This document shows positions 1 to 27,718 of a DNA stretch of 29,490 bases, in pieces. The notes under the pieces were generated by a model. It was not told the DNA's origin. It worked only from the letters and a program-made list of their open reading frames with translations, and made no database searches. The translations under genes were made by a program, and so were the position numbers. The stretch is from a virus: positions 1 through 29,490 of IMG/VR virus record IMGVR_UViG_3300032213_002590, one strand, 5' to 3'. Positions within the stretch are counted from its first letter, which is position 1; the number at the start of each line of letters is the position of its first letter.

Positions 1-200
1 GAGCCTGGTAAGGGAGCCTGGAGCCTGGTAAGGGAGCCTGGAGCCTGGTAAGGGAGCCTGGAGCCTGGTAAGGGAGCCTGGAGCCTGGTAAGGGAGCCTG
101 GAGCCTGGTAAGGGAGCCTGGAGGCTAGTAAGGGAGCCTGGAGGCTAGTAAGGGAGCCTGGAGGCTAGTAAGGGAGCCTGGAGCCTGGTAAGGGAGCCAG
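1..200. repeat. 20-bp tandem repeat array, left end
   Basis: Ten head-to-tail 20-bp units. Units 1-6 (1-120) are identical, GAGCCTGGTAAGGGAGCCTG. Units 7-9 (121-180) carry two substitutions (GAGGCTAG...), and unit 10 (181-200) ends in CCAG before unique sequence begins. The array is richer in GC than the rest of the window and its top strand has regularly spaced GG/GGG tracts. No start codon, ribosome site or reading frame suggests coding. The same array closes the window, so this is probably one continuous array in a circular molecule, or a direct terminal repeat. The true copy number is uncertain because assemblers collapse such arrays. Confidence 0.97.
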
Positions 201-2927: not shown

Positions 2928-3591
2928 CGTATGGAGTCCGCAGTATCGCGGTTCTGCAAGCGTAGTGGGTGGACTGAGCGAGCCTTCAGGTCGTTTTGGC
3001 TGTTTGATTGTTGGTACACGTCCTGATCCTGGCACAAATGAAGAATCGTATTGTGCAGTTTATAGTGCAGCTAACAGGGCAGCAAACTATTTATTCCCGT
3101 ATGCTCCACTGAGTGAGAGCTATGAATACGGTGATATATCATCGTTGTTCAATTACTATGTATCAGGTGTTCGCGCTAACGCTATCCCTGAATACTATCC
3201 CTACAAGAATGAAAAGGGAGTAGTAGTTAATAAACACAACATGGCGGCTGTAATCAAATGGCTACAAGAGCGTATTCCTGCTCTTAAGAAGTACGCCAAG
3301 CCAGATGAGTTTATCAATTATATGTTCTACCACGCAGCGAACCTGTATAATCAGGATATGAAGAACTTTCGTCCTGATTTGTTGTGGCCTATTACGATTG
3401 ATAGTCGCAATCCCGGTCAGCCAGTGATGACTGAGTACTTCAAGAAAAAACAAGGTGAGATTCGAGAAGAATCTAATAAGGGAACAGGCATTGTTTCTGG
3501 TGTAAACGACTTGCTTTCTAATGTTTTGACGGTCATCGTTGTTGGTACAGCGATTTATTTCCTTGCACCAATAATTTTCTCACGTCGCTAA
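2881..3591 (+). CDS. tail-anchored putative virion protein, 236 aa
   Basis: A 236-aa protein with a soluble, Tyr-rich N-terminal region and one C-terminal membrane segment at about residues 213-230, ending in the basic tail FSRR. The start is GTG 2881; no in-frame ATG exists near the N-terminus. The stop overlaps the next ATG by one base (TAATG). The topology (bulk on one side of a membrane, anchor at the extreme C-terminus) is shared by at least six other proteins here and suggests an internal-membrane virion protein. No enzyme motif was recognised. Confidence 0.8.
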   Translation: MNQYEITKSNRYGYGNVWSPQYRGSASVVGGLSEPSGRFGCLIVGTRPDPGTNEESYCAVYSAANRAANYLFPYAPLSESYEYGDISSLFNYYVSGVRANAIPEYYPYKNEKGVVVNKHNMAAVIKWLQERIPALKKYAKPDEFINYMFYHAANLYNQDMKNFRPDLLWPITIDSRNPGQPVMTEYFKKKQGEIREESNKGTGIVSGVNDLLSNVLTVIVVGTAIYFLAPIIFSRR

Positions 3592-4145
3592 TGAAGACGT
3601 TAGTAAGAAATATCGGCAATGGCGATTCAGCGATCATGAAAACACTTGATCACATGATTCGCCTGGCTCGACGTGACGCTAGAACACCAGATGTGAAGAC
3701 TTTGGCAAAGCGATTGGCTTCCTCATGTACGTCTAGTGACATTAACTACCAAGAATACTGCAAAGTAAAGGCTGCATTCGACTGGGTAGTAGACAATATC
3801 ACGTATCGTTTTGATCATCAACACGTACAAGATTGGATCGAAGTCGATAACCCTAATACCACGGAGTTCCTCATCGCACCAAAACACCAACTTGGTGTGC
3901 TTGTAGGTGACTGCGATGATATGTCAATGATGCTCGCTGCTCTTTTAGGTGCGATGGGCTTTAGTGTCAAGTATAAGGTTATCGCATGGCGTGGTCAAGA
4001 ATACACTCATGTGTATGTCGAGGTTCTAATGCCAAACGCTGACGGTGAATACCGTTGGGTTCCTATGGATCCTGTTGCTGGCAAAAACGGTTTTGGCTGG
4101 GAAAAAGCCCCTGTAATTCGCAAACATCACGTAGACGTATTCTGA
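3591..4145 (+). CDS. transglutaminase-fold cysteine peptidase
   Basis: A 184-aa protein with the papain-like/transglutaminase-core pattern. A helix (KVKAAFDWVVDNITY, 58-72) precedes the catalytic Cys in GDCDDMSMMLAALL (C108), followed by His in YTHVYVEV (H140) and Asp in WVPMDPV (D160), in the order Cys-His-Asp and with usual spacing. Proteins of this family occur in many phage structural regions and may process virion proteins or cut peptidoglycan peptides. It lies between two tail-anchored proteins. It has no signal peptide or anchor of its own, so it may act inside the host or be packaged. The fold call is strong; the substrate is inference. Confidence 0.9.
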   Translation: MKTLVRNIGNGDSAIMKTLDHMIRLARRDARTPDVKTLAKRLASSCTSSDINYQEYCKVKAAFDWVVDNITYRFDHQHVQDWIEVDNPNTTEFLIAPKHQLGVLVGDCDDMSMMLAALLGAMGFSVKYKVIAWRGQEYTHVYVEVLMPNADGEYRWVPMDPVAGKNGFGWEKAPVIRKHHVDVF

Positions 4146-4408: not shown

Positions 4409-4624
4409 ATGACTGTTAAGCAGTACCTACAAGGTGCAATCAATTACATGAAAGCGACGTTACGTCCTACTGCATCTATTGAAATCGCTGAGGATAGGTA
4501 CTCAAAATGCTTGCAGTGCGACAAAAGAGCCACCTTTCCTCGTGAAAAATGCTCGTTATGTAACTGCTATTTGCCTCAAAAGACGCTTTTGGTAGATCAA
4601 CACTGTCCCATAGGACGCTGGTAA
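4409..4624 (+). CDS. small zinc-ribbon protein
   Basis: A 71-aa protein with the pattern C-x2-C (KCLQCD, about residue 34), C-x2-C-x-C (KCSLCNCYL, about 48) and a final CPIGRW. This 'CxxC...CxxCxC...CPxGxW' arrangement is a recurring small zinc-binding module in phage structural regions. The function is not established. It lies in the middle of the structural operon, with its stop overlapping the next ATG by one base (TAATG). Confidence 0.8.
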   Translation: MTVKQYLQGAINYMKATLRPTASIEIAEDRYSKCLQCDKRATFPREKCSLCNCYLPQKTLLVDQHCPIGRW

Positions 4625-6024
4625 TGAAACTTGTAACGCTTGAAGACAACTTTGGATCGCTTTCTGCTCCTACTAAGGGATCAGGATTGATCACATCGTC
4701 ATCACCATCGCAGAATAGCCCTACATCGTTGCGTAACGAAGTTCCGCACTTCTCTTGGCTTAACAACGATGATGTGTTGTATGATGCACTTGGTAGCGTT
4801 AATACACGAGTGCCAGGATCAGCATTTGGACTAATAATGCCAGAAACAACTAATAATTCTGGCTTTGGATTGTTCCGCAATCGTCACGACCGACCTATCG
4901 TCGTCGTTACAGAGACATATTCAGGCGATAACACAAATCCGATGTTCCGAAACCTGCAAGAAACAGGTGCATGGGGCAACGATCCAGTCATTATTGAAGT
5001 ACCTCGTGGTGAGGGTGGTGGTTACATGGAACGTACCATCTTCCCAAATATCCGCAACAAGGTCATTCCAGCATTGACGCGATTAGAAAATGAGGGAGCG
5101 AGTAATCGTTTGATCCTTGTCAAGATCGTAGGACGTCCAAGAACGTGGCGATATTTCGGTGAATTGGCCTTGCAATACGCAGAACTTGCGGTAAACCTGG
5201 CTATGGACTACGCAGCACCGTATGTAGGAAAGTTCCTAGACATCCCCGTAAGCGATTTTCTGAATCTTAAGCCATTCATCACATCGCTTGTTAAGGATCA
5301 ACCAGTAGATATTGGAAGCCTGGCACAAGCTGCAAGCCTTGTAGTGCCGTCAGACATACGACCGACTCTCGGTAAGGCTGCTGAATTCTATCAGAACGTA
5401 CAGCAAGGTCAATATACGGCAGCAGCTAAAGACCTCGGTGTTGATCTTAGTGGTGTAGATCGTATTCTAAATGACTTTGCCTCTGATGTGCCTGACGTAG
5501 CTGCTAAGACAGCACAAGGTATTTACATCATGGACACGATCAACCAAGTTCGTGGATCAATTAGAAGTGGTACAGCCAAGCAAGAAATCATCCAGAATGG
5601 CACGATCACAAAGACACCTGCGCTACAGAATCTGATTCTGAGTGCTATGAATACCACTACAGCAGCAGTACCTCGTGCAGTCGAGATCAGCGGTCTAACA
5701 GCTAAAGAGACAAGCGATCTTCAGTCAGCAAAGGAATGGCGTGGTATCTATCAAATCGCACATGGCGTACCAGTGACACCATGTTCTCTTGATCGTATTG
5801 CAGTTCGTGGACTTGTCGAACGCGCACGTGACCTTTATCAAAAGGGTTACAAGACGATGAATATGCCTTCTATCGTTCCTGCTGATAAGCGTGATTGTTT
5901 CTCCGACGAAATCAGAGCGCAAACAGGAATATCAACGACTGGTGGAAGTGGCAAGATTTCTCCAGTGTTCTTGATGGGCGTAGCTGGAGCAGCAGGTCTC
6001 GCATATTTCGCATTGAGGAAGTAA
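4624..6024 (+). CDS. large tail-anchored putative virion protein, 466 aa
   Basis: The largest protein of this block. Residues 1-120 are Ser/Asn-rich and probably flexible; a mixed alpha/beta domain follows (RPIVVVTETYSGD, NRLILVKIVGRPRTW), then a long helical region at about 170-430. The C-terminus carries a GGSG linker and one Gly/Ala-rich membrane segment (SPVFLMGVAGAAGLAYFALRK, from about 446) that ends in Arg-Lys. No catalytic motif or known family was recognised. The anchor matches those of the proteins at 4153 and 6597, so I infer a membrane-associated virion or assembly protein. Confidence 0.85.
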   Translation: MKLVTLEDNFGSLSAPTKGSGLITSSSPSQNSPTSLRNEVPHFSWLNNDDVLYDALGSVNTRVPGSAFGLIMPETTNNSGFGLFRNRHDRPIVVVTETYSGDNTNPMFRNLQETGAWGNDPVIIEVPRGEGGGYMERTIFPNIRNKVIPALTRLENEGASNRLILVKIVGRPRTWRYFGELALQYAELAVNLAMDYAAPYVGKFLDIPVSDFLNLKPFITSLVKDQPVDIGSLAQAASLVVPSDIRPTLGKAAEFYQNVQQGQYTAAAKDLGVDLSGVDRILNDFASDVPDVAAKTAQGIYIMDTINQVRGSIRSGTAKQEIIQNGTITKTPALQNLILSAMNTTTAAVPRAVEISGLTAKETSDLQSAKEWRGIYQIAHGVPVTPCSLDRIAVRGLVERARDLYQKGYKTMNMPSIVPADKRDCFSDEIRAQTGISTTGGSGKISPVFLMGVAGAAGLAYFALRK

Positions 6025-8042: not shown

Positions 8043-8591
8043 ATGGCACGCAAGTTTACTCTTCAGATCAACTCGAATCTGAAGCACTCCATGTCAAAGC
8101 AAGAGCTGACCGATGACCTTTCGGCAGTACTTGCAGCAGCGACATGGGTTCTGCCCTCAACTCTCTTGAACCTGAATGGCTATGCAGGTCTCGGAGTCGC
8201 GTTCGCATCGACATGGGGCATCGGTGCTTTGTTCAACATCCCAGGTCTTCGCCGTGCAGCGTGGGCATTGGGTGCGGTTCATCTTGCTTATACAGCAGGT
8301 CGCAAGCCAATCGAAGATTTGCTTGGACAACCTCTCTGGCGCATGGATGAAACAGCTACAGTAGTAGAAGCAGCACCAGCGTCAACGACTACTGGTGGTC
8401 TCGCAGCAGCTATGCAAGCAGGCGCACGTATGACACAACTGCCAAACGGCACATACGCACCTAGCTATGATGGTATGATGGATCGTTTTGCACCAGAGTA
8501 TGCTTCGACAGGTCTCGAAGGCTATAGCGATGGTTACGATTCACCAAATGCTGTAAACAATGCTCCAATGTTCTCATCTAGCCCATTCTAA
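8043..8591 (+). CDS. multi-pass membrane protein, probable virion component
   Basis: A 182-aa protein. The N-terminus is basic (RKFTLQINSNLKHSMSK). Hydrophobic segments at about 26-45, 47-64 and 70-83 suggest two or three membrane passes, and the C-terminal 80 residues are hydrophilic and Ala/Ser/Tyr-rich. It is preceded by a 37-bp gap with a leader resembling those of the candidate capsid gene and the histone-like gene, so it may be abundantly made. No family was recognised. Confidence 0.8.
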   Translation: MARKFTLQINSNLKHSMSKQELTDDLSAVLAAATWVLPSTLLNLNGYAGLGVAFASTWGIGALFNIPGLRRAAWALGAVHLAYTAGRKPIEDLLGQPLWRMDETATVVEAAPASTTTGGLAAAMQAGARMTQLPNGTYAPSYDGMMDRFAPEYASTGLEGYSDGYDSPNAVNNAPMFSSSPF

Positions 8592-8615
8592 GCTAGATAA
8601 CTCAGTCACTAATTA

Positions 8616-8634: not shown

Positions 8635-8642
8635 TAATTGCG

Positions 8643-9257
8643 ATGTCGCAAATCGTTCCTGATGGTTTCGGACTACCACCAGCTGGTGCCACCGTCCAGA
8701 ATACATGGGCTATTGGTCATGACGCGGTTCTGATCAATCCAGCCACAGCTCTTGATTCGTCGTACACATTCTTTGATCAATCAGCATCGAAGAGTACGAC
8801 TTATCGCACGAGCGTTCTTTCAGTACTTGCACAACAACGTGCAGTGTACATCAAGGCTCTTCAGCTCAACCACAACCTTGCGTTCGCTGCAAACGAAAGC
8901 GAGCCAGCAGGTTCACAGACTGAAGGCTTTAACCGATTCTCTTTTGTCCAGATCACAATTCTTGGCAAGAGCGAAGACCGCTTCACACTTGAGGATCTCG
9001 TACCATTCTCCTTCATCAACGTGCAGGGAACGGTAACAGCTCAACTCAAGTACGCTCCGATTTTTGTTCTTCCAGAGCCAATCGAAGTTCCAAAGGGTGG
9101 TGACATTCAGATCACTCTTCTCCCGAACTCTGGCTACACGACAGCAGCATCGGCAGCAACAAATCCTCACCTTCCAAACGCTGGCTTCACGACATCAAAC
9201 CGTGGATTCAACGTTACGCTGAAGTACTGGGGTGCTCAGAGCCGTCCAACTGCCTAA
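8643..9257 (+). CDS. candidate major capsid protein (small all-beta protein)
   Basis: A 204-aa protein with no membrane segment and many alternating hydrophobic strands (FSFVQITILGK, VTAQLKYAPIFVL, GDIQITLLP, FNVTLKYWG). A Pro/Gly-rich turn (EPIEVPKGGDIQ) precedes a strand, as is common in jelly-roll capsid proteins. The context supports a capsid role: it is the first of three adjacent beta-rich proteins, it has its own leader, and a strong hairpin follows. No sequence-level family match is claimed. A spike, penton or cement protein is the main alternative. Confidence 0.55.
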   Translation: MSQIVPDGFGLPPAGATVQNTWAIGHDAVLINPATALDSSYTFFDQSASKSTTYRTSVLSVLAQQRAVYIKALQLNHNLAFAANESEPAGSQTEGFNRFSFVQITILGKSEDRFTLEDLVPFSFINVQGTVTAQLKYAPIFVLPEPIEVPKGGDIQITLLPNSGYTTAASAATNPHLPNAGFTTSNRGFNVTLKYWGAQSRPTA

Positions 9258-9319
9258 TGCAGTTTGGATTGTTGTGGGTATCAGCTCAATCGGCCTACAA
9301 CTCAACATCGCTATCAACA

Positions 9320-9351
9320 ACCGTGGCGGATCGGATAACATCCGCCACGGT
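9320..9351 (+). other. strong RNA hairpin between two structural genes
   Basis: A perfect 12-bp GC-rich stem, ACCGTGGCGGAT (9320-9331) with ATCCGCCACGGT (9340-9351), and an 8-nt loop. No T run follows, so a classical terminator is unlikely. It lies in the 128-bp gap after the candidate capsid gene. It may protect the 3' end of the capsid message, or reduce read-through so that the capsid protein is made in excess. Confidence 0.75.
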
Positions 9352-9385
9352 GATAGCGGTAAATTTCCTAACCAACTGAAGTATT

Positions 9386-9811
9386 ATGGAACCGATTACT
9401 CTAATCCCAGCGTCGAATCTTTACGTGTGGACGCTGAAGAACAACATCGTATCAGCGTCAACACCAGCAGATACGACTTTCAAGACACCAGGATTTGATA
9501 TTGATGTGGTATCGGTTCGAGGTGCGTTTTATAACACCACGGGTGCTATCCTTCCAACCAGCACAAACCGTGATAAAATCATGCTGCAAATCGTAGCTGG
9601 TGATACGTCAGCGCAACTTGCATCTACAGCAGCAGATGTATTTGGCTTCTTGTCTATGTGGTATGATTCTAACAACAACGTGCCACAATTCACACTTGCA
9701 AGCAATACAAACTACCAAGTTGTTTTCTCTGTTGATACGTCAACGGCAGTATTCGGCGCAACATATCCGATTCGCTGCGAATTGCAGTTCATTGGCAAGA
9801 AGAAGCAATAA
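9386..9811 (+). CDS. small all-beta structural protein, 141 aa
   Basis: A 141-aa protein dominated by predicted strands (NLYVWTLKNNIVSAS, DKIMLQIVAG, YQVVFSVD, YPIRCELQFIG) with a short basic tail (KKKQ). It starts with ATG 9386 after the hairpin gap and ends 11 bp before the next gene. Size and strand density suit a jelly-roll or immunoglobulin-like capsid or decoration protein. The longer frame starting at 9232 overlaps the capsid candidate and is rejected. Function inferred from context only. Confidence 0.7.
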   Translation: MEPITLIPASNLYVWTLKNNIVSASTPADTTFKTPGFDIDVVSVRGAFYNTTGAILPTSTNRDKIMLQIVAGDTSAQLASTAADVFGFLSMWYDSNNNVPQFTLASNTNYQVVFSVDTSTAVFGATYPIRCELQFIGKKKQ

Positions 9812-9822
9812 TAGAGGCAACA

Positions 9823-10578
9823 ATGCTCGACCACAATCGAATCGAGAAACTTCTCCAAACCCCGGTGTATGACATCCGCACGGCATACTGGTTTTCAACG
9901 ACGGATACAAATCCGACGTTTCAAGAAAACTGGGTTCCTGATGCCAATGCTGGATATTGGCAGACTAATGGGAGTGGAATTGTCGAGCATGACAACCTAT
10001 CTCAAATGCCGACGAGTCCAGGCTCAGACGCATTGGCAGCAAGTCCGTATAGTACACGGCTTAGACCAATGACTGATACGCGCTATCTGCAAACAGCGAG
10101 TAAGGTTGTAGTCACAAAGATTCACTTCCGCGCATACGACCATCGTCTGCCAGGCTCTGCGTATCAGGACGCTGCAACAAACACGGCGATTGATAACAGT
10201 CTTTGCACCTATAGCAGCTATGTAGTGTCACGCTTCCGTGATGGACTTATCAGCGACTGGTCAAACAACTGGTTTCGTCCAGCGTTTATCATCGGTGGTG
10301 TCAACATTCTACGTGACTTGGCTCTTCCAGCTATCGGTTCAACGGACGAGTTTGGCAATCTCTTGACATACAATCTTGGTGATATGTCTGTTGGTATTCC
10401 ATGCCCGTGGGAATTCAACGATATGTATGCTGTGATCAACAACTCAGACGGTCAACAAGTCGTTACAGCACCACAAGTCTATGCACAACTTGTTCAGTAT
10501 ATTCCAGATACAGGACGATATGTGCGCTATCCAGTAAAGTGTATCGCAGAATTTGCAGTAGCACAAGGTGATCGTTAA
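9823..10578 (+). CDS. beta-rich structural protein, 251 aa
   Basis: A 251-aa soluble protein, aromatic-rich and with many short strands. It ends in a strand-like RYPVKCIAEFAVAQ resembling the YPIRCELQFIG end of the preceding protein (pattern YPhrC.h.F), which hints at a shared fold. GAGG precedes the ATG. Together with the proteins at 8643 and 9386 it forms a trio in which one or two could be capsid subunits, as in phages with paired single-jelly-roll capsid proteins. This is inference from size, composition and order. Confidence 0.7.
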   Translation: MLDHNRIEKLLQTPVYDIRTAYWFSTTDTNPTFQENWVPDANAGYWQTNGSGIVEHDNLSQMPTSPGSDALAASPYSTRLRPMTDTRYLQTASKVVVTKIHFRAYDHRLPGSAYQDAATNTAIDNSLCTYSSYVVSRFRDGLISDWSNNWFRPAFIIGGVNILRDLALPAIGSTDEFGNLLTYNLGDMSVGIPCPWEFNDMYAVINNSDGQQVVTAPQVYAQLVQYIPDTGRYVRYPVKCIAEFAVAQGDR

Positions 10579-10580
10579 TA

Positions 10581-11036
10581 ATGGCACTGACATCAAAGCA
10601 AGTAGCCGAACTCGCTAATGCAGCAGTTGAAACAATGCGCCCACGTTTCAAGAGCATTGATCCTAAAATGTGGAAGCGTGTACTTGTTGCACTCGCCTGG
10701 CATGAATCTAAGTTCGATCCAAAGGCTAAGAACAAAAAAAGTTCTGCACGAGGACTAATGCAGATTCTAAAAGGCACACAACTGGACATAGAGCGTCGTT
10801 TGCGTATGACACCACAAAGTAATGACAAGCTCGATGATCCAGGCTACAGTATGCTGTTAGCATCGTACTACTTGGCATGGTTGTACATCAACAAGGCGAA
10901 ACGCTCTTGGGATCGTGCGATCGTAGCCTACAATCAAGGTCATTACAACCTTTCACAAGCTGGAGAAACCTATCGACGCTTGATTTGGAAGGCTTACAAT
11001 GAGCAAGATTGGAATCAAACAAGCCCTTTCGCATAA
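10581..11036 (+). CDS. lytic transglycosylase (SLT-like)
   Basis: A 151-aa protein covering a lysozyme-fold soluble lytic transglycosylase domain. The catalytic Glu is in AWHESKFDP (E42), followed by ARGLMQI (56-62) and AYNQG (116-120), the usual three landmarks of the family in the right order. It would cleave the glycan strands of peptidoglycan. There is no signal peptide, and it sits inside the structural block, so it is more likely a virion-associated entry enzyme than the endolysin. The start lies 2 bp after the previous stop. Confidence 0.93.
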   Translation: MALTSKQVAELANAAVETMRPRFKSIDPKMWKRVLVALAWHESKFDPKAKNKKSSARGLMQILKGTQLDIERRLRMTPQSNDKLDDPGYSMLLASYYLAWLYINKAKRSWDRAIVAYNQGHYNLSQAGETYRRLIWKAYNEQDWNQTSPFA

Positions 11037-11055: not shown

Positions 11056-12033
11056 ATGAGCCTCAAAGAAATTATTGCTGAGAAGAACGGTACGGAAAAG
11101 CGCAAGAATCGCGTTAATCCTCTGCGTTTTCGCAAAGACGTACAGTATGAATATGGTGAGCTGGTCAAAGATTCGGCACTGGATAACCCAGAATGGCGAG
11201 TCAAGCCAGTTATTCGCCCAGGTCAGTACTTCTTGGATAAAGGCTGTAGGACGATCCCTGAGTATCTGGACACAAATCCAGACGCACTTCGTCCTGATCG
11301 CATCTTTACGTTCTACATGATCGGTATTGGTGGTCGTCGGACGTACTTGTATCAGCAAAATCCTGGCGTTCCACAAGCACCAGAAGCTCAAGGCATGGCA
11401 GTTATGAACGATCAAATCTCTGCTGTTCCTGCTCACATGACAATTCCACAAGCTGAACAACCACAAGATCAATCACAACCGATTGATTTGTCGATGATCG
11501 GCACTATGGTACGTGAATCGCTTGAGATTGTTAAAGAGACAAACAGAGACCTTACACGTCAACTTGAACAGTTCCGCACTCAAGAAAGCAATATGCGTCA
11601 GTACTACGAAGAACTCGTAGCAGGGATGCAGCGTGAATTGATCCAGACGAAGCAGGCTCTCGAAGAAGCTAAGGCAGAAAAGAAGGCCGTTGAGGATGAA
11701 TACAACATTCGCAACGAGTATCAGACCCAGGTTAACGGATTGCAGGACAAGATACGCGCAGATGAAGGCAGCCTAGGACTACGTGACATCATCGGCATAC
11801 TGCCTCACGTGATGCCTCTGATTACTCAGCTCTTCAACCGACCAGCGCAGCCACAGTATGTTCCTTACCCTACTAGCGGTAACGGTTATCCTCCTATGCA
11901 AGCAGGTGTCCCGGTGAATATGCCTGGTACGCCACAAAACGGAGCTTATCCGACGATGCAGACAATGGGCAACGGTATGCAATCGGTAAATCCGAATATG
12001 CCTACAGCCAATGTTGTGTCGAAGGAGGCCTAA
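11056..12033 (+). CDS. coiled-coil structural protein, 325 aa
   Basis: A 325-aa protein in three parts. Residues 1-100 are a basic, mixed domain. Residues about 150-235 form a long coiled coil (RQLEQFRTQESNMRQ, QTKQALEEAKAEKKAVEDE). After a short hydrophobic helix (IIGILPHVMPLITQLF, 245-260) the last 65 residues are Pro/Gly/Asn/Met-rich and disordered. The leader AGGAAGCCCCTCCT before the ATG resembles that of the gene at 16241. It could be a scaffold, spike-stalk or DNA-delivery protein; no family was recognised. Confidence 0.8.
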   Translation: MSLKEIIAEKNGTEKRKNRVNPLRFRKDVQYEYGELVKDSALDNPEWRVKPVIRPGQYFLDKGCRTIPEYLDTNPDALRPDRIFTFYMIGIGGRRTYLYQQNPGVPQAPEAQGMAVMNDQISAVPAHMTIPQAEQPQDQSQPIDLSMIGTMVRESLEIVKETNRDLTRQLEQFRTQESNMRQYYEELVAGMQRELIQTKQALEEAKAEKKAVEDEYNIRNEYQTQVNGLQDKIRADEGSLGLRDIIGILPHVMPLITQLFNRPAQPQYVPYPTSGNGYPPMQAGVPVNMPGTPQNGAYPTMQTMGNGMQSVNPNMPTANVVSKEA

Positions 12034-12351
12034 ATGCGTACACTCAACCGAACCGTTCTGGCTAAGGACTTGCCTGATTGGGCAGTAAAATCCTTTGAGA
12101 ATATCGACTACGATTCACTGAATAGCCTAACACGAGTATCGTTGCTTGCAAGCCTGAAGATGTGGTGCAATTCGCAACCACAGCGCAGAAGCAACTACGA
12201 TGCTGTAGAGAAGTCTACGCCTATCCCACAAGATTTGGCTAACGTGATCAACATGGTAGACTTCAACAAGATGACTCGTGAATCAACGATGATCGCTAAA
12301 TCTTTTCTTACAAATCAACTATGGCTTTTCGCACCAAAGTACAAGGGCTAA
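12034..12351 (+). CDS. hypothetical protein, 105 aa
   Basis: A soluble, mostly helical 105-aa protein starting directly after the previous stop (TAAATG), with GGAGG upstream at 12025-12029. No motif or family was recognised. Its last 31 bases overlap a tiny membrane-protein gene at 12321 in another frame. Confidence 0.7.
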   Translation: MRTLNRTVLAKDLPDWAVKSFENIDYDSLNSLTRVSLLASLKMWCNSQPQRRSNYDAVEKSTPIPQDLANVINMVDFNKMTRESTMIAKSFLTNQLWLFAPKYKG

Positions 12352-12436: not shown

Positions 12437-12778
12437 ATGTCAGATAGCCGTCACATTCGTCGCAACCTGCGTTCTTTCCTCCGTATTTCTGCTCTGCTTG
12501 CTACAATCATTGTAGTAGGCTCCGTGATCGGGGACTCAGAAGCTATGCGTGTGCTGTTTATCGCTGCACAGGCCGTATTTGCTACCACTGCGATCGCTAC
12601 AATGGCTCAATGGGCGTTCACTAGCCTGAATTTCACTGAGCAGCGGTGCAAGCAGTACGAAGAATCCGTTGATGAAATCATTGTCGCAGCCCGTGTACGA
12701 ACACTGGGCATGATTTACATTGGAGTGTCGATTGTGGTAGGCCTGGTCTACTTCGCGACCTACAGGGGCGCGTTCTGA
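12437..12778 (+). CDS. three-pass membrane protein, holin-like candidate
   Basis: A 113-aa protein with a basic N-terminus (SDSRHIRRNLRSF), hydrophobic segments at about 16-33, 39-61 and 90-108, and a short polar loop. ATG 12437 is preferred to GTG 12428. Its stop overlaps the following CHAP gene (TGATGG). A small multi-pass membrane protein immediately upstream of a cell-wall hydrolase is the usual layout for a holin, but it may equally be a virion membrane protein in this membrane-protein-rich block. Confidence 0.7.
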   Translation: MSDSRHIRRNLRSFLRISALLATIIVVGSVIGDSEAMRVLFIAAQAVFATTAIATMAQWAFTSLNFTEQRCKQYEESVDEIIVAARVRTLGMIYIGVSIVVGLVYFATYRGAF

Positions 12779-13404
12779 TGGACTTTCGTCGCCCACTGAA
12801 GCAAATACGCCTTGCAATGTACATCATTGCAGGGCTTTTAGTGCTTTTGTGGGGTACAGTCATGGCTATCGCATCTGTTCCTCGCTACTCGGCTCAAATG
12901 CCGCCTAAGTATGTTGAACAGGTCATAAAAAATGGATTATCCGACGTAGGGAAAATCGAATATACTGGACGCAACGACGGCAAGCATATTGACAGATATG
13001 CACGAACCGTTGGTATGCCTTTAGGTTCGGCTTACTGCTACGCTGCTATCTATACCTGGTCTAGCGATGCAGCTCATTGCCAGGCACTTGGCAACCCACT
13101 TCCTCGTACTGGCTCGACACAGACGGCATTCACTGTCGCTTCTAAAACATTTGCAGCCTCTAAGTACACGTCGGCTCGTCGTGGGGACATTCTGATATGG
13201 CGCATACCACGTAAGTGGCTTGGTCATGCAGCTCTTATCACTCGTGTACGTCCAGATGGTCTGCTAGAGACGATTGAGGCTAACACATCACGCGGTGGCA
13301 GTGGTGACCAGCGCGATGGTGGTGGCGTATGGACTAAACGTAGATTTATCAATCGAGGACTCGGACGTATGATCGTCCGTGGTCTTATCGGAATAGGCGC
13401 ATAA
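12778..13404 (+). CDS. membrane-anchored CHAP-like peptidoglycan amidase/peptidase
   Basis: A 208-aa protein. Residues about 13-33 form an N-terminal signal-anchor. The CHAP/NlpC-like domain follows, with catalytic Cys in GSAYCYAA (C87), the GDILIW strand (136-141), His in GHAAL (H150) and Glu in IEANTS (E167). It should cut peptide bonds or the amide bond in peptidoglycan from the periplasmic side. It follows the holin-like gene directly. Because the anchor is N-terminal it differs from the second CHAP protein at 17021. Either may be the endolysin; the other may serve entry. Confidence 0.88.
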   Translation: MDFRRPLKQIRLAMYIIAGLLVLLWGTVMAIASVPRYSAQMPPKYVEQVIKNGLSDVGKIEYTGRNDGKHIDRYARTVGMPLGSAYCYAAIYTWSSDAAHCQALGNPLPRTGSTQTAFTVASKTFAASKYTSARRGDILIWRIPRKWLGHAALITRVRPDGLLETIEANTSRGGSGDQRDGGGVWTKRRFINRGLGRMIVRGLIGIGA

Positions 13405-14666
13405 TGGAAAGAGGCATATTTGTCCCGATGATGATTCCTGCCTTCCCAGACAACCCTTGTGGTGGTGGTGGGACAGGTACGGTCACGTCGGTAGCACTTA
13501 CGGCTCCTGCGATTTTCGCAGTGGCAAATAGTCCAGTGACAACGGCTGGATCGCTGGATATTACGCTTGTTAATCAAAGCCCGAACCGTGTATTTGCATC
13601 TCCTACGACGGCTCCAGCAGCTCCACCGACGTTCAGGACGCTGGTAGCTGCTGATCTTGGCACTGGTACGGCTACAGTCAACACGGTTCTTCGTGGTGAC
13701 ATGACCTGGGGTGACGCAACTGCTATTGTAGGCTGGACACCAAGCCTCAATACAAGCTCGCCTAACAACACCGTAAACGCTTCGCGCTTGCTTGTCAATA
13801 GCACAAGCGTCAATGGCGATGCGGTGATCCAGCCTAAAGGCACTGGGGCATTGATTGGTGATCTGCCTGATGGCACGTCTGCTGGTGGCAATAAGCGAGG
13901 TACGTATGCAGTGGATTTACAGCTTGATCGTACCAATGCTAATCAAGTTGCTTTAGGTAATTATTCAGCTCTGATTGCTGGTTATCAAAATCGTGCAGAG
14001 GGTGTGTACTCAGCTGTTCTCGGTGGTGTGTCCAATTTTGTTAATGGATCATCGAGTATTATTCTTGGTGGATCTAGTAATACGATCGCATCAAACAGCG
14101 GAGCCATATTGTCTGGTTCTAGCCATAGCATAACAGCTGAATTTGCAACCATTGTCGGCGGAGGCGGAGGCGTTGCTAACGCATACAATCAAAAGGTATA
14201 TTCTGCCGCAGCTGGTCAGGCAAGTGGGACGAGACAGCAGGAGGAATACATTGTCACTCGCTCGACAACTTCTGGTATTGATGGTAATACCTTAGTAGAA
14301 TTGACCTGCAATGGTTCTGCTCCGTTATTTGCAAGCACTCCCAATCAAATAAGCGTTAGCAATAATGCCGTATATGCTTTTAGGGGTATAGTAGCTGCCT
14401 ATGGAGCAGACACAAATGCTGGTACAAGATACACTTACTGCGCTGAATTTAAGGGAGTTGTCCGTAGGTTGAACGCTGCGACTATCACCTTAGTCGGTTG
14501 TCCTACTGTAACTGTTTTAGCAGATGATAGTTCATCAAAACTTGTATTTGATATACAGGTTGATACAGTTAATAACGCGCTAAGGTTGCTAGGACAAAAT
14601 AATGTTGGCATTAATGCCTATGGCGTTTGGAACGCGCACGTTCAACTCACTAAAATTGGCTTCTAA
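13404..14666 (+). CDS. spike/fibre protein with YadA-head-like repeats (copy 1)
   Basis: A 420-aa protein. The N-terminus has GGGGTGTVTSVALTAP, typical of phage fibre proteins. A segment at about 119-188 (PNNTVNASRLLV, QPKGTGAL, GGNKRGTYAVDLQ) is nearly the same in the next gene. Residues about 185-255 are YadA/Hep_Hag-type repeats (GNYSALIAGYQN, GVYSAVLGGVSN, SSSIILGGSSN), which form trimeric left-handed beta-rolls. The C-terminal 140 residues are beta-rich and probably the receptor-binding or trimerisation domain. Likely host adsorption. The opposite strand is open over long stretches but codes for nothing recognisable. Confidence 0.88.
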   Translation: MERGIFVPMMIPAFPDNPCGGGGTGTVTSVALTAPAIFAVANSPVTTAGSLDITLVNQSPNRVFASPTTAPAAPPTFRTLVAADLGTGTATVNTVLRGDMTWGDATAIVGWTPSLNTSSPNNTVNASRLLVNSTSVNGDAVIQPKGTGALIGDLPDGTSAGGNKRGTYAVDLQLDRTNANQVALGNYSALIAGYQNRAEGVYSAVLGGVSNFVNGSSSIILGGSSNTIASNSGAILSGSSHSITAEFATIVGGGGGVANAYNQKVYSAAAGQASGTRQQEEYIVTRSTTSGIDGNTLVELTCNGSAPLFASTPNQISVSNNAVYAFRGIVAAYGADTNAGTRYTYCAEFKGVVRRLNAATITLVGCPTVTVLADDSSSKLVFDIQVDTVNNALRLLGQNNVGINAYGVWNAHVQLTKIGF

Positions 14667-14668
14667 TC

Positions 14669-15958
14669 ATGCCTAAAGTAAATTACGTTCAGCCGTGTGG
14701 CGGATCTGACATTACTATTACGTACCCTTCGACGAGCGGTACGCTTGCACTGAGCGGTGCTGGATTGACTGGTTTCATTCCTTCGCAGAACACTGCTGCT
14801 CCGAATAACACTGTAAACGCATCACGTTTGCTTGTCGATGCTACAACTGCAAATGCTGATATAGTCTTGCAGCCTAAAGGATCGGGTGCATTCTTAGCAC
14901 AGCTGCCTGATAACGCCACTACGGGTGGTAACAAGCGTGGTTCGTATGCAGTTGATTTGCAAACCCAACGTACAGCTGCTAACCAAGTCGCTGCTGGTAA
15001 TAATAGCGTTATTGGTGGTGGTTACGCTAATCGTATTGACGGTCTGGGTACGGCAAGCGTTATTGCTGGTGGTAACTCTAACTTGCTACAGAACGCTGGT
15101 TATTCATCAATTCTTGGTGGTAACGCTAATGCGGTTTATGCTCAAAATTCATCCGTTGTTGGTGGTTCAGGAAACTATTGCAATAATCAATACTCTTCGG
15201 TCTTGGGTGGTTTTACTAATGCCAACCAAGGATATGTCGCTACTCTTATTTCTGGTGGCAACAATACAATCAACTCAGGTGCAGATTACGGATTGATTGG
15301 CTCAGGTACTAATAATAACGTTAACGCAGCGTATTCAAGTATCATCAACGGATCATCAAATAACAACAGCGCATCATACGTAAGTATAGTCACAGGTCAA
15401 TTTAATACAGCATCCACGGGTTCTTCTACCTATGGTCTTATCGCTGGTGCTTCTTGTGGCGTTTATCACGAAGGTGGGATAGCATTTGGTGTTGCGGCGG
15501 GTACAACTACAAACCACCAAAAAGTTTGGAGTTCAGGACTAGCTACTGGCAATTCAGGGGACGTACAACAAGCCGAGCATCATTTGTACACAACGACCAC
15601 TAATGGATCTAATGTAAATCTGACCATTGGAGGAGCCACGTTATCAAATACAACGTCTGTAGCGGTTCCCCTGAATGGCACATTTTTATTCAAGGCTATT
15701 GTTTCTTGCAAGAGGTCTCCGACTTCTACAGCTGACTTTGGAGCGTGGGAGGTAACTGGTCTAGCAGTCAATCTTGCTGGTACAGTTACACTCTTTGGTA
15801 CAACCGTCACTATTATCCACAGAACAAACGGCGGATACACGGTGAATGCCGTCGCAGACAACACAAACAAAACTGTCAATATCGTAGTACAGGGTGTTGC
15901 TGGTCATACTATCATTTGGTCGGCCTACGTAAACACTATTCGTTCAGTAACTGCATAA
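14669..15958 (+). CDS. spike/fibre protein with YadA-head-like repeats (copy 2)
   Basis: A 429-aa paralogue of the preceding protein, starting 2 bp after it. It shares the PNNTVNASRLLV...QPKGSGAF...GGNKRGSYAVDLQ segment (about 45-110). It has a longer run of head repeats at about 108-265 (GYSSILGGNAN, QYSSVLGGFTN, AYSSIINGSSN) and a C-terminal beta domain that differs from copy 1 but keeps a common layout (QKVWSSGLATG versus QKVYSAAAGQA). It lacks the GTVTSVALTAP start. Two different receptor-binding ends on a shared stem would broaden host range or form a heteromeric spike. Confidence 0.88.
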   Translation: MPKVNYVQPCGGSDITITYPSTSGTLALSGAGLTGFIPSQNTAAPNNTVNASRLLVDATTANADIVLQPKGSGAFLAQLPDNATTGGNKRGSYAVDLQTQRTAANQVAAGNNSVIGGGYANRIDGLGTASVIAGGNSNLLQNAGYSSILGGNANAVYAQNSSVVGGSGNYCNNQYSSVLGGFTNANQGYVATLISGGNNTINSGADYGLIGSGTNNNVNAAYSSIINGSSNNNSASYVSIVTGQFNTASTGSSTYGLIAGASCGVYHEGGIAFGVAAGTTTNHQKVWSSGLATGNSGDVQQAEHHLYTTTTNGSNVNLTIGGATLSNTTSVAVPLNGTFLFKAIVSCKRSPTSTADFGAWEVTGLAVNLAGTVTLFGTTVTIIHRTNGGYTVNAVADNTNKTVNIVVQGVAGHTIIWSAYVNTIRSVTA

Positions 15959-16738: not shown

Positions 16739-17021
16739 CAATTCTACAGTCTTTGAGCTGTTGTGGTCTCTCGTACAGTCGATCGCTACGGCACTTCCTA
16801 TTGCTGGGGGTATCTACATGGCTTGGGTTAAGCACACCAAGATGATGGTAACGTCCTTTACGGACGTTATTGCTGCTGCCGTTACACGTCGCGACGACTG
16901 GCACGACATTCGTGCGCGTATTGACGTAATCGAGGAACGGCAGCATGAAGATGCGGAAACCCTACGACGTATCGACGAGCGCATTGACGAGATTTACAAA
17001 CTGCTGATCAAGTCCCGATAA
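16731..17021 (+). CDS. single-pass membrane protein with coiled coil, holin candidate
   Basis: A 96-aa protein starting at ATG 16731 (a TTG at 16716 would also be in frame). Residues about 10-33 form one membrane segment (VQSIATALPIAGGIYMAWV), followed by a charged coiled-coil tail (IDVIEERQHEDAETLRRIDERID). This plan occurs in small phage holins and holin-associated proteins. It lies directly upstream of a CHAP hydrolase (stop/start share one base), which favours a lysis role; a spike-base protein is the alternative. Confidence 0.75.
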   Translation: MDSNSTVFELLWSLVQSIATALPIAGGIYMAWVKHTKMMVTSFTDVIAAAVTRRDDWHDIRARIDVIEERQHEDAETLRRIDERIDEIYKLLIKSR

Positions 17022-17608
17022 TGGTTCCTGTTAAGACTATAGAAGAAGTAGCAGCTGAATGGTACGCTCGTAACTGTGTAGAGGAACGAGCTAATCGTGG
17101 AGTATGCGTAGACAAGATTCACGAACTATTCGATCCTAAGTGGATCACAAACAAACGCGCTGAAGCCTGGTGTGCGAAGTTCGTATGGGTTGTCTATGAA
17201 GAGGCTGCACGTCGATCTGGAGTCAAGAATCCACTGCCTCGGACGGCTGGAGCGCGTTTAATGCGCGATATGTCCATCAAAGAAGGTTTACGAGTCGATA
17301 AAAAGCCACAGGATGGTGATGTTTTCTATCGTACATCGGAATCTCCCGGCTCAAGTGGTCACGTTGGTATCGTTACAGATGTAAAGGCTGATGGCATTAC
17401 GACTGTAGAAGGCAACTTGAGCAATCGAGTTGCCTATTACCATTACGATTGGGACAAGATCGAGTCTCCTAAGTGGAACTTCAGCTTCATTCACGCAGCG
17501 GACGATTCACAAAGTGGCAGCGGTACTGTGTTAGCAAGCACAAACGGGCTTCTTGGGCTTGTCTTGATCGGTACTGCTGCCCTTTGGTATTTCAATAGGA
17601 AGAAGTGA
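17021..17608 (+). CDS. CHAP-like peptidoglycan hydrolase with C-terminal membrane anchor
   Basis: A 195-aa protein with a CHAP domain: catalytic Cys in AWCAKFVW (C51), QDGDVFY (97-103), His in GHVGIV (H114) and Glu in TVEGN (E130). After a Ser/Gly linker it ends in a membrane segment (about 173-191) and FNRKK. The C-terminal anchor is the same plan as in the putative virion membrane proteins, so this could be a virion-bound entry enzyme, while the flanking holin-like and Rz-like genes point to lysis. The enzyme fold is well supported; role undecided. Confidence 0.9.
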   Translation: MVPVKTIEEVAAEWYARNCVEERANRGVCVDKIHELFDPKWITNKRAEAWCAKFVWVVYEEAARRSGVKNPLPRTAGARLMRDMSIKEGLRVDKKPQDGDVFYRTSESPGSSGHVGIVTDVKADGITTVEGNLSNRVAYYHYDWDKIESPKWNFSFIHAADDSQSGSGTVLASTNGLLGLVLIGTAALWYFNRKK

Positions 17609-19377: not shown

Positions 19378-22300
19378 ATGAAAAAACAACATCGCAACAA
19401 CATCGACAGTATGCTCATGCGCCTTTGCAAGATCAAGGCTCGCAGTAAGGGGTACTATTCAGATGAGCCACAATACAAATCGTATTGCACCAAGCTATAC
19501 AACGCTACAAAAGAAGGCAAAGGTATAGCTGGTCTGGCTGGTGATGCTAACAATGAAGCCACTGCTGAACGTCTCACCAAGCTCTTCAAGGCCATAGGAT
19601 TCCCCTATCGCGTCGAAGCGTCTGGCAAGTTCCTAGACTTCTATGACCTGAATCCTGATGCAGAAGATCCTATTTTGTTTGACGATGATGCGGAAGACGT
19701 TTTCTACGATCAATTTGGCAAGGTTGTCAACTTTAAGGTATTGATTAGCCAGTTTTACGATCGTGATGAAAAGGTCAAGGCTTATGTAGAAAAGAACTTG
19801 TCTTCTAAGCGTCAAGCAAAAAAGACAGAGCCAAAGATCGAACGCGAAGAAGAAGCAGTTGAGGCTGAAGAAAAGGTCGAGATGCCAAAGCCTGTTCGTA
19901 AGACAGCAAAGGCTAAGGTCGAGAAGGTTGTAGAGCCTACGATCGACCCAAAAGAAACCGAAGATGAACAGGTAGTAGAGGCCAAGCAGATAAAGCCTAG
20001 TAAGAAGACAAAGAAGTTTGACGGTCAACTAGGTGGTCTCAACTACGAAGTTCTAACACGAGATGAGTGGTTGCAAGAATATGAACGTGCAACCGACGGC
20101 TATAAAATGGCAAAACGCGATCGTCAGGTGCTTATATCTCGTATTGAGCAAATGAGCGGTGCGGAGCTTCAGGAAAAATTTGGTGATTCGTTTATCAGTT
20201 CTACTGAAAATTCCTTTTACAGTGGCGATAGAGAATGGGTCGCTAAGTGGGCTTTGCGTATCGAGGAATTAGGTATCGTCACAATTACAAGTGCAAGGCG
20301 ATATTCAGACAATGACTCAACTAAGTTTCCTGAATCCTTCCTAAAAACTAATAGGTGGGAAATCAAATTGTTGCTTGAGCCAAAACAATCTTCTATAACA
20401 AAGTTGCAGTGCGATCACGCATCGCACTTTTTTGGTGATACATTCTTTGGTCAAAAGGTAGAACAACCCTTTTATGGTTGCCAAGAAACTAGTTCGTCAA
20501 CGAAGGAGACACCATCTAAACCAGCTAATCCATATAGCATCTTCGATGTAGCTGTAAATGCTGACGCTTGGAGTGATAAGACTGGTAAGTATGTATGGTA
20601 TTTGCTTACTGTCGAAGACTCTTACCGTATATGGAAGAACGCTGGTGGTGCTTTATATCCTCCTACCAAGGTCGCCGAATCTGATGACATTGGTCAATGG
20701 AATAAACTCAAGGATTTCTTTGGCAGTGAACCATTTGAGGCAACACAAAATAATCGAACATACTACCACTATCCTGTTGTTTTGGCGTTTCTAGGTTCTG
20801 GTACTCTTTATGAAGATACTCCACCTTGTCTATTCGGATTTTCATTTCATGAACTAGACAATGACAGAGTAACTTTCTACGTTCATTCTTATCCATTCGC
20901 CGATTCTTTTGGCGGTAAAAGATTCATTGATAGTGAAAAGCATATACTTAATGACTGCTTGAGTCTTCAATCATTTTTGAGTCACGTTGATATTGACATG
21001 AGTCTTGTGTCACCATGCAAAAAGCGTCGTAAAAGAATGAAAATTGAAGAAAAACTGAACGACTGTACCTCATGTGGTAATGATTCATCACTGAGCGATG
21101 ATCAATCATTTGATGGACTCATCGACCAACTCATTGAGGAGCATGACATTGATCTTGATGTATATGATTATGATGATTACATCATTATCAGTCGTATCGT
21201 TGTACCTAAAAACAAGCGTAATGAAGGTATTGGAACCGAAGTCATTGAGAAAATCCTGGAATACGCTGACGATAATGATAAAGACGTTTTTGTAACTCCT
21301 ACATCTGATTTTGGTGGGAGCATGACACGTCTTACTAAGTTCTACAAGTCTTTTGGCTTTGTACCTAACAAGGGCAAATACAGAGACTTCCGCACTCGTG
21401 AGACCATGATTCGCAAGAATAGTACGCTCGATGATCATACCGAGGATATGCCTACGCTTTTCTCCGGCAGCAATAATGTAGATCTTGGCAAACTTGAAAA
21501 CGATGATCGTCACAAGGCTCCTTATCGTGATGATGAAGGGTTTTTCAGCCCTGCCCACGATGTTTCCAAGGCATTTCCTGGTATCTACTCGATGTCGTTC
21601 TCGAAGGCACTCAGAGAGTATGGCACGGGCAACGATTCAGACCCTATGGCACTACAGATTATCCGTAACATACAGGACAATCCTGATGCTAAGGTGAAAA
21701 TCTATCGCGCAGTCGAGAAGGGTTTGCAGGATAACATCGCAGACTTAAAGCAAGATCGTAAGTACATAAAGCGTAATGGCTCTGTTCCACCTTGGGCAGA
21801 CGTACCTCCTCATTCAGCGGAGGAGTATTCAGCCTTTGTCGATTCACAGATTGACAATCTTGGTTCGGTGGAAGGTGCTACGATCCAGGCGAGTATCAAT
21901 CCAAATGAATGGGTAACGATTACTCGACAGTACGCTGTAGATCATGGCGAGTGTTGTGTTCCCGGTGGATATACGATTTTGACAAAGACAGTAAAGGCTA
22001 AAGACCTTTTTACTGAAGGTAACTCGATCCATGAATGGGGCTACGATCCAGGAAACGATACAGGCCTACGTGATCAATCATTTATGCCTCCGAAAGACGT
22101 ACAAGAGGAAGCAGAACGTGGTCTCGAATGGCGACGTGAGTACAACCGAGGTGGTACTTCTGTAGGTGTTGCGCGAGCAAGAGATTTGTCTAACGGCAAG
22201 TCTGTTAGCTATGATACGGTCAAGCGTATGAAGGCTTACTTTGACAGGCATTCGGTAGATAAGGACGCTCAAGGATTCCGTCAGGGTGAGCCTGGCTATC

Positions 22301-23097
22301 CTAGTGCTGGTCGTATTGCATGGTCTCTTTGGGGTGGTGATGCTGGCTATCGCTGGTCTAAGTCCATCGTAAGCAAGCAAGGTCTCGGAGAAATAGATTC
22401 CAACGATCAACTTTCAGGCAAGGTGCTGGACACCCAAGAAAAAGAGCAAAGCAAAGAGGTTGCACCATTGACGACTCAAGAAGTTATCAATATGGATCCA
22501 CCTCAAACGCTGCCACTGAAGGGTGAGATGCGAGATTTCCTGAGTAACCTATTGGCAAAGTTCAATATGCTGATTTGGGGTGGTGCTGGTAGTGGCAAAT
22601 CGTCATTTGTGCTGCGTTTGGCTAATGAACTTGCTGAAACAAATACAGGTCGCGTTCTTTACTACATGACCGAGGAAAAGGTTTCAAGCGGTCGTCTCAA
22701 GGCACGTATGGACTTGATGAAGGCTTACAGTGATAACGTCAACTTCGACGATCACGGTACTTTCGATCGACTGACTGCTCTGGTCAATACTGGTATGTAT
22801 CGTTATGTGATTGTTGACTCAATCAACATGATCAACGTCGAGCAACAACGTATCGTAGACTTAATGCAGACATTCCCAGAAGTGAGCTGGATTTTCATTG
22901 CACAAGCCACTAAGGGAAAGAATGCCTACGCTGGTATTCAGTCCTTGGCTCATGCTGTAGACACTGAAATTTCAACTGCGAACGATAAAGGTACAGCGGT
23001 AGCGGAATTGAAGAAGCACCGTGACGGTGCGCTTAAGACTCATACGATCTTTGGTAGTACTGGTATGCGCGATCCAGGGTGGCAAGCACAATGGTAA
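19378..23097 (+). CDS. giant polyvalent protein: GNAT + ART-like + phage domain + RadA-like ATPase
   Basis: A 1239-aa multidomain protein. Residues 1-140: unknown, acidic. 140-215: Lys/Glu-rich linker. 215-345 and 380-555: two domains not recognised. 558-680: GNAT acetyltransferase fold with acetyl-CoA loop RNEGIG (614-619) and FYKSFGFV. About 725-895: ADP-ribosyltransferase-like domain (KIYRAVEK, R777; WVTITRQYAVDHG, 846-858; AKDLF...IHEWGYDP, E886). About 926-995: phage domain ARARDLSNG...RHSVDKDAQGF...YPSAGRIAWSLWGGDAG. 1050-1239: RadA/RecA-type ATPase with Walker A GGAGSGKSS (1068-1076), YYMTEEK, Walker B YVIVDSIN (1143-1150) and KKHRDGAL. This is the 'polyvalent protein' plan, thought to be injected with phage DNA to counter host defences. 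The ATPase could alternatively help genome packaging. Confidence 0.88.
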   Translation: MKKQHRNNIDSMLMRLCKIKARSKGYYSDEPQYKSYCTKLYNATKEGKGIAGLAGDANNEATAERLTKLFKAIGFPYRVEASGKFLDFYDLNPDAEDPILFDDDAEDVFYDQFGKVVNFKVLISQFYDRDEKVKAYVEKNLSSKRQAKKTEPKIEREEEAVEAEEKVEMPKPVRKTAKAKVEKVVEPTIDPKETEDEQVVEAKQIKPSKKTKKFDGQLGGLNYEVLTRDEWLQEYERATDGYKMAKRDRQVLISRIEQMSGAELQEKFGDSFISSTENSFYSGDREWVAKWALRIEELGIVTITSARRYSDNDSTKFPESFLKTNRWEIKLLLEPKQSSITKLQCDHASHFFGDTFFGQKVEQPFYGCQETSSSTKETPSKPANPYSIFDVAVNADAWSDKTGKYVWYLLTVEDSYRIWKNAGGALYPPTKVAESDDIGQWNKLKDFFGSEPFEATQNNRTYYHYPVVLAFLGSGTLYEDTPPCLFGFSFHELDNDRVTFYVHSYPFADSFGGKRFIDSEKHILNDCLSLQSFLSHVDIDMSLVSPCKKRRKRMKIEEKLNDCTSCGNDSSLSDDQSFDGLIDQLIEEHDIDLDVYDYDDYIIISRIVVPKNKRNEGIGTEVIEKILEYADDNDKDVFVTPTSDFGGSMTRLTKFYKSFGFVPNKGKYRDFRTRETMIRKNSTLDDHTEDMPTLFSGSNNVDLGKLENDDRHKAPYRDDEGFFSPAHDVSKAFPGIYSMSFSKALREYGTGNDSDPMALQIIRNIQDNPDAKVKIYRAVEKGLQDNIADLKQDRKYIKRNGSVPPWADVPPHSAEEYSAFVDSQIDNLGSVEGATIQASINPNEWVTITRQYAVDHGECCVPGGYTILTKTVKAKDLFTEGNSIHEWGYDPGNDTGLRDQSFMPPKDVQEEAERGLEWRREYNRGGTSVGVARARDLSNGKSVSYDTVKRMKAYFDRHSVDKDAQGFRQGEPGYPSAGRIAWSLWGGDAGYRWSKSIVSKQGLGEIDSNDQLSGKVLDTQEKEQSKEVAPLTTQEVINMDPPQTLPLKGEMRDFLSNLLAKFNMLIWGGAGSGKSSFVLRLANELAETNTGRVLYYMTEEKVSSGRLKARMDLMKAYSDNVNFDDHGTFDRLTALVNTGMYRYVIVDSINMINVEQQRIVDLMQTFPEVSWIFIAQATKGKNAYAGIQSLAHAVDTEISTANDKGTAVAELKKHRDGALKTHTIFGSTGMRDPGWQAQW

Positions 23098-27480: not shown

Positions 27481-27718
27481 TGCGGAAACCCTATTTGACG
27501 GGGTTTCCAGGACATTGTGCGAGTGCGGAAAGAGTGCGGAAAAAAAAAGCGTTTCCGCAGCGACGTTGTAAGTCTATGGCCTGAATAGGTGTTTGTCTAT
27601 GGATTATTGCGGAAAACACGGGGGAGAATGCGGAAACCTGGCAGGCCTCGAATATCATTGTATGCTTGGTTTCCGCAGGTTTTCCGCAGGTTTTCCGCAG
27701 GTTTTCCGCAGGTTTTCC
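27481..27718. other. putative replication origin with ten iterons
   Basis: Within 230 bp there are ten copies of TGCGGAAA or its complement TTTCCGCA: five in forward orientation (27481, 27524, 27535, 27608, 27629) and five in reverse (27552, 27670, 27681, 27692, 27703). The last four are spaced exactly 11 bp, about one helical turn, as GGTTTTCCGCA repeats. It lies in the only long gene-free region, between the divergent helicase operon and the rightward early promoter, with AT-rich DNA just to the right (27731-27760). Iteron arrays of this kind bind an initiator. A transcriptional operator array is the alternative. Confidence 0.75.

Follow-up and report, generated by a model that had tools for sequence, protein, structure and literature searches.

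A probable tailless icosahedral phage genome with a candidate capsid cassette distantly related to Salisaeta icosahedral phage 1

The 29,490-nucleotide stretch of viral DNA analysed here, referred to below as the window, carries three adjacent small genes whose products have no database match of their own, and the locus raises the question of whether these genes could encode the shell of a tailless phage and, if so, to which known viruses that shell would be related. A preliminary description had read the three genes as a tailless capsid module resembling those of P23-77 and SH1. We find that the interpretation as a tailless capsid module is probably right; judged by sequence comparison, however, the closest relative of the window is Salisaeta icosahedral phage 1 (SSIP-1), itself distant, and not P23-77 or SH1. 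Overall, we think it likely that the window holds in full the circular genome of a tailless icosahedral phage with a capsid cassette, a distant relative of SSIP-1.

The window is an entire IMG/VR virus record, and the earlier impression that it is complete was borne out. Its ends have 122 identical bases in common, inside a 20-bp tandem array; two IMG/VR relatives (G1, 35.4 kb; G2, 31.9 kb) have 127-base end overlaps and are permuted with respect to the window; and the genes flanking the window's junction adjoin each other in both relatives. Because of the end overlap, the permuted relatives and the contiguity of the junction genes, the window is very probably a complete circular genome. The repeats concerned, together with a candidate replication origin, are as follows:

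1..198, + strand: 20-bp tandem repeat array, left end, continuous with 29358..29490 over the circular junction
29358..29490, + strand: 20-bp tandem repeat array, right end
27670..27718, + strand: 11-bp iteron array TTTCCGCAGGT, 4.5 copies, candidate replication origin

The junction-spanning 20-bp array is missing from both relatives. The iteron unit TTTCCGCAGGT recurs in G1 (L010 13436-13482) in an equivalent gene context, and the other relative also has an 11-bp array, although its sequence differs from TTTCCGCAGGT. A perfect 30-base direct repeat was also seen at 27831-27860 and 28184-28213; its copies lie 353 bases apart, each where a small ORF region starts.

Terminase, portal, HK97 capsid, tape measure and tail tube genes, which the preliminary description had failed to recognise, were likewise absent from PHROGs (40 ORFs) and Pfam (17 ORFs) searches of the window, the ORFs outside these scans all being shorter than about 130 aa. 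The features of Caudoviricetes membership (terminase large subunit, portal and HK97 capsid protein) were accordingly not found in the window, no integrase was recognised there, and the ten proteins scanned in the provirus closest to the window (L120) included neither a terminase nor a portal.

The three adjacent small ORFs are indeed present, with the lengths first described (204, 141 and 251 aa), and are separated after the first gene by an RNA element:

8643..9257, + strand: 204-aa protein, candidate major capsid protein 1, homologue of the SSIP-1 gp45/gp46 family
9307..9360, + strand: very stable RNA hairpin between the 204- and 141-aa genes (z -6.15)
9386..9811, + strand: 141-aa protein, candidate major capsid protein 2, one domain, homologue of the gp47 N-terminal half
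9823..10578, + strand: 251-aa protein, candidate third shell protein (14-row family A11), a putative penton or spike base

Their products are 84, 76 and 78% identical, respectively, in the 35.4-kb relative and 96, 96 and 98% identical in the 31.9-kb relative, with gene order kept. This conservation, in two relatives and in provirus loci, indicates that the three ORFs are real genes. The intact cassette was recovered in order, downstream of a homologue of the 182-aa protein, in seven provirus loci (L097, L119, L123, L124, L135, L136 and L138), and in part in four others (L120, L121, L122 and L137); it is preceded by a small membrane protein and followed, where coverage allows, by a lytic transglycosylase (SLT) and/or a coiled-coil protein. 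Few proteins are as well conserved between the window and G1 as the 204-aa one (84%); among the window-like proviruses, conservation within the cassette is highest for the 251-aa protein.

Several finer traits had been attributed to the cassette. By propensity ranking alone, the description of all three proteins as beta-rich is clear for the 141- and 251-aa proteins but not for the 204-aa protein, which is middling. The closing pattern said to be shared by two of them is present (YPIRCELQF in the 141-aa and YPVKCIAEF in the 251-aa protein); in the 141-aa family, however, it is restricted to the window's close relatives, and the 141- and 251-aa families show no profile similarity to each other, so we treat the pattern as weak evidence and reject it as proof of kinship between the two proteins. 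The strong hairpin at 9307-9360 was recovered and has counterparts in both relatives (L002, about 9489-9523, z -4.47; L004, about 10665-10717, z -5.92), in which the stem sequences differ. Since no U-tract follows it, the hairpin is not a plain terminator; one possible role of this conserved element is to adjust how much of the first shell protein is made relative to the later ones. The special leader proposed upstream of the cassette has no structural support (8592-8650, z = +0.40).

The genes around the cassette provide its context, and those to which we were able to assign a character or a conserved family are listed here:

3591..4145, + strand: transglutaminase-like protein, SSIP-1 gp34 homologue (Pfam Transglut_core 1.4e-10)
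4624..6024, + strand: 466-aa protein with a C-terminal hydrophobic segment, upstream of the cassette, 63% identity in both relatives
8043..8591, + strand: 182-aa membrane-type protein directly upstream of the cassette, present in the window-like proviruses reaching that far
10581..11036, + strand: lytic transglycosylase (Pfam SLT 1.9e-21)
11056..12033, + strand: 325-aa coiled-coil protein after the cassette, weak similarity to SSIP-1 gp33 (E 0.018)
12034..12351, + strand: 105-aa conserved small protein, found in relatives and proviruses
12778..13404, + strand: CHAP-type endolysin (PHROGs endolysin 1e-7; Pfam CHAP 2.3e-5, just under the cut-off)
13404..14666, + strand: fibre/spike-like protein 1 with a YadA-type-like repeat head (phrog_9625, unknown function, 1.3e-9; repeats read directly)
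14669..15958, + strand: fibre/spike-like protein 2, a paralogue of fibre/spike-like protein 1 in its middle part
17021..17608, + strand: CHAP peptidoglycan hydrolase with a C-terminal membrane segment (Pfam CHAP 6.6e-10)
19378..23097, + strand: 1239-aa multidomain protein with a C-terminal ATPase (about 1045-1239), gp40 homologue (phrog_6891 ATPase 1.7e-23)
24499-24801: repressor-like HTH protein
24952..26676, - strand: D5/DUF5906-type replicative helicase-primase (DUF5906 7e-12, D5_N 4e-7; PHROGs DNA primase 4.4e-51)

The 466-aa protein has matches in several window-like proviruses. In the 1239-aa ORF, the N-terminal part of one protein (747 aa in G1) is fused to the C-terminal part of another (916 aa in G1, 866 aa in G2), and both relatives have two extra genes, of about 460-500 aa, between the counterparts of these parts; it seems that about 3 kb or more is missing at this ORF, lost either in the window lineage or in its assembly. 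Two domains of the 1239-aa protein (~712-891 and ~903-1012) were considered as lineage markers and rejected, as tailed phages carry both.

Compared with annotated phages, the ATPase region matched SSIP-1 (tblastn, E 1e-8), and the homology to gp40 was clear at the protein level (phmmer, E 7.5e-15), as was that of the transglutaminase-like protein to gp34 (phmmer, 2.2e-12; hhalign probability 98% over 130 columns). The capsid facts on SSIP-1 used here come from reviews and from its GenBank record, in which gp34, gp40 and gp44-gp48 are marked structural. We found that the 204-aa family (14 rows) aligned with the gp45/gp46 family (hhalign probability 83%, E 8.7e-6, 133 columns), a link of moderate strength that varied with direction and rows (69-83%, E 4e-5 to 9e-6) and was stable when the gp45 family was enlarged to 14 rows (81%, E 1.1e-5; 0.5% for the reversed decoy). 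The 141-aa family aligned with the gp47 family (76%, E 2.3e-5), and with its N-terminal half at 85% (E 6.9e-6), the window having one of the two gp47 domains. None of the cassette families matched the structural protein gp48.

Note that these hhalign E-values refer to single comparisons, and that decoys are the fairer yardstick; among 132 reversed or shuffled decoys, the best reached a probability of 0.5% (E 0.11). The capsid links to SSIP-1 nevertheless consist of moderate profile scores at 9-17% identity, obtained with family alignments of 13-14 rows each. A first profile comparison, with 3-row families, was negative and turned positive only once provirus rows had been added, so the 3-row comparison was uninformative. 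In HMMER searches of 1792 ORFs, the best non-family match of the 204-aa profile was a gp45 homologue (E 0.071) and that of the gp47 profile was a 141-family protein (E 0.013), both below significance.

The resemblance to SSIP-1 extends to the genome. Both genomes are circular and carry a gp40-type ATPase and a gp34 transglutaminase-like protein, and in SSIP-1 gp44 is followed by adjacent small structural proteins, an arrangement like that of the window, with the 204-aa protein corresponding to gp45/gp46 and the 141-aa protein to half of gp47. The differences are also considerable: the window is 29.5 kb and SSIP-1 43.8 kb; in SSIP-1 there are two gp45-type genes and gp47 is duplicated, whereas the window has a single, one-domain copy of each; no counterpart of the 251-aa protein was found in SSIP-1; the window encodes a D5-type helicase-primase in contrast to the small gp38 primase of SSIP-1; and the window's ATPase, unlike that of SSIP-1, is fused to a long multidomain protein.

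Reviews group SSIP-1 with P23-77 and SH1 among the tailless viruses that contain a membrane and have a pair of single-barrel major capsid proteins (PMC6356626, PMC4958249, PMC5332951); single-jelly-roll viruses (kingdom Helvetiavirae) are placed by the ICTV in a realm of their own, Singelaviria (PMC12714852). From the SSIP-1 link, and from a gene order as in SH1 and P23-77, jelly-roll folds of the cassette proteins, an internal membrane and the shell roles proposed below may be inferred, and any membership of SSIP-1 and the window in Singelaviria would depend on the fold. The AlphaFold models are of too low a confidence to bear on the fold (pLDDT 28.8 for the 204-aa protein with 3 rows and 34.2 for the 251-aa protein with 4 rows, the rows being mostly near-identical), and searches of PDB sequences with profiles A2, A3 and A11-A15 returned nothing credible. 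The 251-aa protein had no match in SSIP-1, the PDB, Pfam or PHROGs, and its family matches its own clade alone.

An obvious alternative is that the window is a direct member of the P23-77/SH1 order (Halopanivirales), a divergent sphaerolipovirus relative in which the 204- and 141-aa proteins would be of the VP16/VP17 or VP7/VP4 type. The gene logic is shared, a membrane or structural gene preceding two small capsid genes (VP12-VP7-VP4 in SH1, VP15-VP16-VP17 in P23-77), and the grouping of SSIP-1 with these viruses (PMC5332951) points the same way. P23-77, a Thermus phage of the Matshushitaviridae, also has a circular genome, two adjacent small capsid genes and wall-degrading enzymes in common with the window, and SH1, a Haloarcula virus of the Sphaerolipoviridae, has a membrane protein followed by two adjacent small capsid genes, as well as, in its group, a single-barrel penton as a known third shell protein (PMC6414509). 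However, every cassette family scored below 1% profile probability against P23-77 VP16 and VP17 and SH1 VP4, VP7 and VP9, the alignment of the window's ATPase with that of P23-77 spans only 24 columns around Walker A, and the SH1 genome, at 30.9 kb, is linear. We therefore regard direct membership as unlikely. Of the likeness to P23-77 and SH1 proposed earlier, what is supported is a tailless capsid module tied to SSIP-1, which is grouped there, but not a direct capsid similarity; likewise, the proposed divergent tailless lineage of about 29 kb is supported as a complete genome of tailless type, but its placement is SSIP-1-like.

The cassette proteins could instead be accessories, such as spikes or decoration, in another tailless architecture (double-jelly-roll as in PRD1, PM2 or FLiP, or a new shell) whose shell is built from another ORF, for example the large and conserved 466-aa one. 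Judging by its sequence, that protein seems mostly helical and ends in a membrane segment, both the 204-aa and the 141-aa protein have matches among the structural proteins of SSIP-1, and the high conservation of the 204-aa protein in G1 fits an accessory poorly, so that we hold this to be quite unlikely. Many ORFs have no match at all, and SLT, CHAP and the two domains of the 1239-aa protein occur in tailed phages too, all of which would suit a tailed phage, or a fragment of one, with head and tail genes too diverged to recognise and the three proteins serving as tail or baseplate components; but the genome is circular and complete, terminase and portal are absent from it and from the proteins scanned in L120, and there is positive homology to SSIP-1 structural proteins, and we consider this reading highly improbable.

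Under the preferred reading, that of a tailless SSIP-1-like phage, the virion module would begin near the transglutaminase-like gene (3591) and extend to roughly 18960. The choice of two major capsid proteins among the three is one that we infer: the capsomers would most likely consist of the 204-aa protein, as the gp45/gp46 homologue, and the 141-aa protein, arranged on a membrane vesicle, and the 251-aa protein would most likely form the pentons or a spike base; HCIV-1, for comparison, has a third single-barrel protein as its penton (PMC6414509). The 182-aa protein and many small proteins with C-terminal membrane segments may belong to the internal membrane, the gp40-like ATPase is the putative packaging motor, passage through the wall at entry or exit would depend on the SLT and CHAP enzymes, and attachment to the host on the fibre proteins.

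To what extent such viruses are represented elsewhere was addressed in bacterial genomes and in IMG/VR. A phylum-wide ATPase search recovered SSIP-1-type proviruses, with homologues of gp33, gp34, gp35, gp36, gp40, gp44, gp45, gp47 and gp48 in varied combinations, and one window-type provirus; ten more window-type loci came from the order and class of the first window-type host genome. Matches of 436-476 aa in the ATPase search were considered as RadA, an identity that was rejected since they cluster with the SSIP-1-type ATPases and their genomes also carry gp45 homologues. SSIP-1-type capsid genes were present in 15 of 395 genomes sampled from the phylum, and window-type loci in 7 of 123 genomes of one order. 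In the closest provirus, L120, matches were found to the 204-aa protein (9e-31), the transglutaminase-like protein (8e-40) and the 251-aa protein (7e-33; 7e-38 with the enlarged profile); its SLT gene (1e-19) and its 105-aa gene are placed as in the window.

A further type was reached through the ATPase alignment, in a provirus of a Bacteroidia metagenome-assembled genome (L025), whose capsid candidate of ~235 aa has homologues in 34 of 395 genomes of one class. The conserved gene run of these proviruses (L025, L027, L057-L076), which consists of transglutaminase-like, membrane-type, ~235-aa, ~128-aa, ~126-aa and ~107-aa proteins, resembles that of the window in its transglutaminase-like gene, its membrane-type protein, and its ~235-aa protein with two small proteins; several have a gp40-type ATPase, and a coiled-coil protein is present as in the window. 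The 204-aa family aligned with the ~235-aa (M234) family at a probability of 38%, rising to 66% (E 5.7e-5) when joined with gp45/gp46. The small proteins M128 and M126 are paralogues of each other (98%), and no link between them and the 141-aa family was detected by profile.

The provirus loci indicate that relatives of the window are temperate, and of the sampled Bacteroidota genomes, several percent carry similar elements, as identified by homology, in their chromosomes. In IMG/VR, by contrast, a pattern scan of 2.9 million contigs, which was not exhaustive, gave three window-type relatives (L002, L003 and L139), and a likewise non-exhaustive scan with A16 for the Bacteroidia-type candidate, covering the subtype searched, gave two contigs (L140 and L141). 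Set against 34 of 395 genomes, these two contigs suggest that viral surveys miss Bacteroidia-type proviruses.

The second shell protein occurs in more than one form. In SSIP-1 and its relatives, gp47 is an internal duplication (N half against C half, 97%, E 3e-10), and the 141-aa protein has in L120 (9992-10843) a homologue of 283 aa that arose by tandem duplication, its halves being 26% identical (blastp, E 3e-13). A broader reading, tentative and in our judgement slightly short of probable, is that the window, SSIP-1 and the Bacteroidia proviruses represent three clades within a single large and undescribed lineage of tailless viruses whose hosts are Bacteroidota and Rhodothermota. Its lack of the usual hallmark genes would explain why viral sequence collections contain hardly any of it, and within it the second shell protein would be single (141 aa), tandem (283 aa in L120, and gp47) or perhaps paralogous (M128/M126). 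If this is true, these forms would document how single barrels became fused double ones. SSIP-1 has until now been treated as an isolated oddity, and the window shows a whole lineage to exist, represented by circular genomes in the free state as well as by many integrated copies; should the folds be confirmed, surveys of these hosts would be overlooking a class of tailless virus, and the single and tandem-duplicated shell proteins would make the origin of fused double barrels directly testable.

Finally, one 35.6-kb IMG/VR contig (L021) possibly represents a further tailless group: small proteins, some of them with a membrane segment at the C terminus, follow its transglutaminase-like gene (3e-13), and it gave no other match to the profiles used here.
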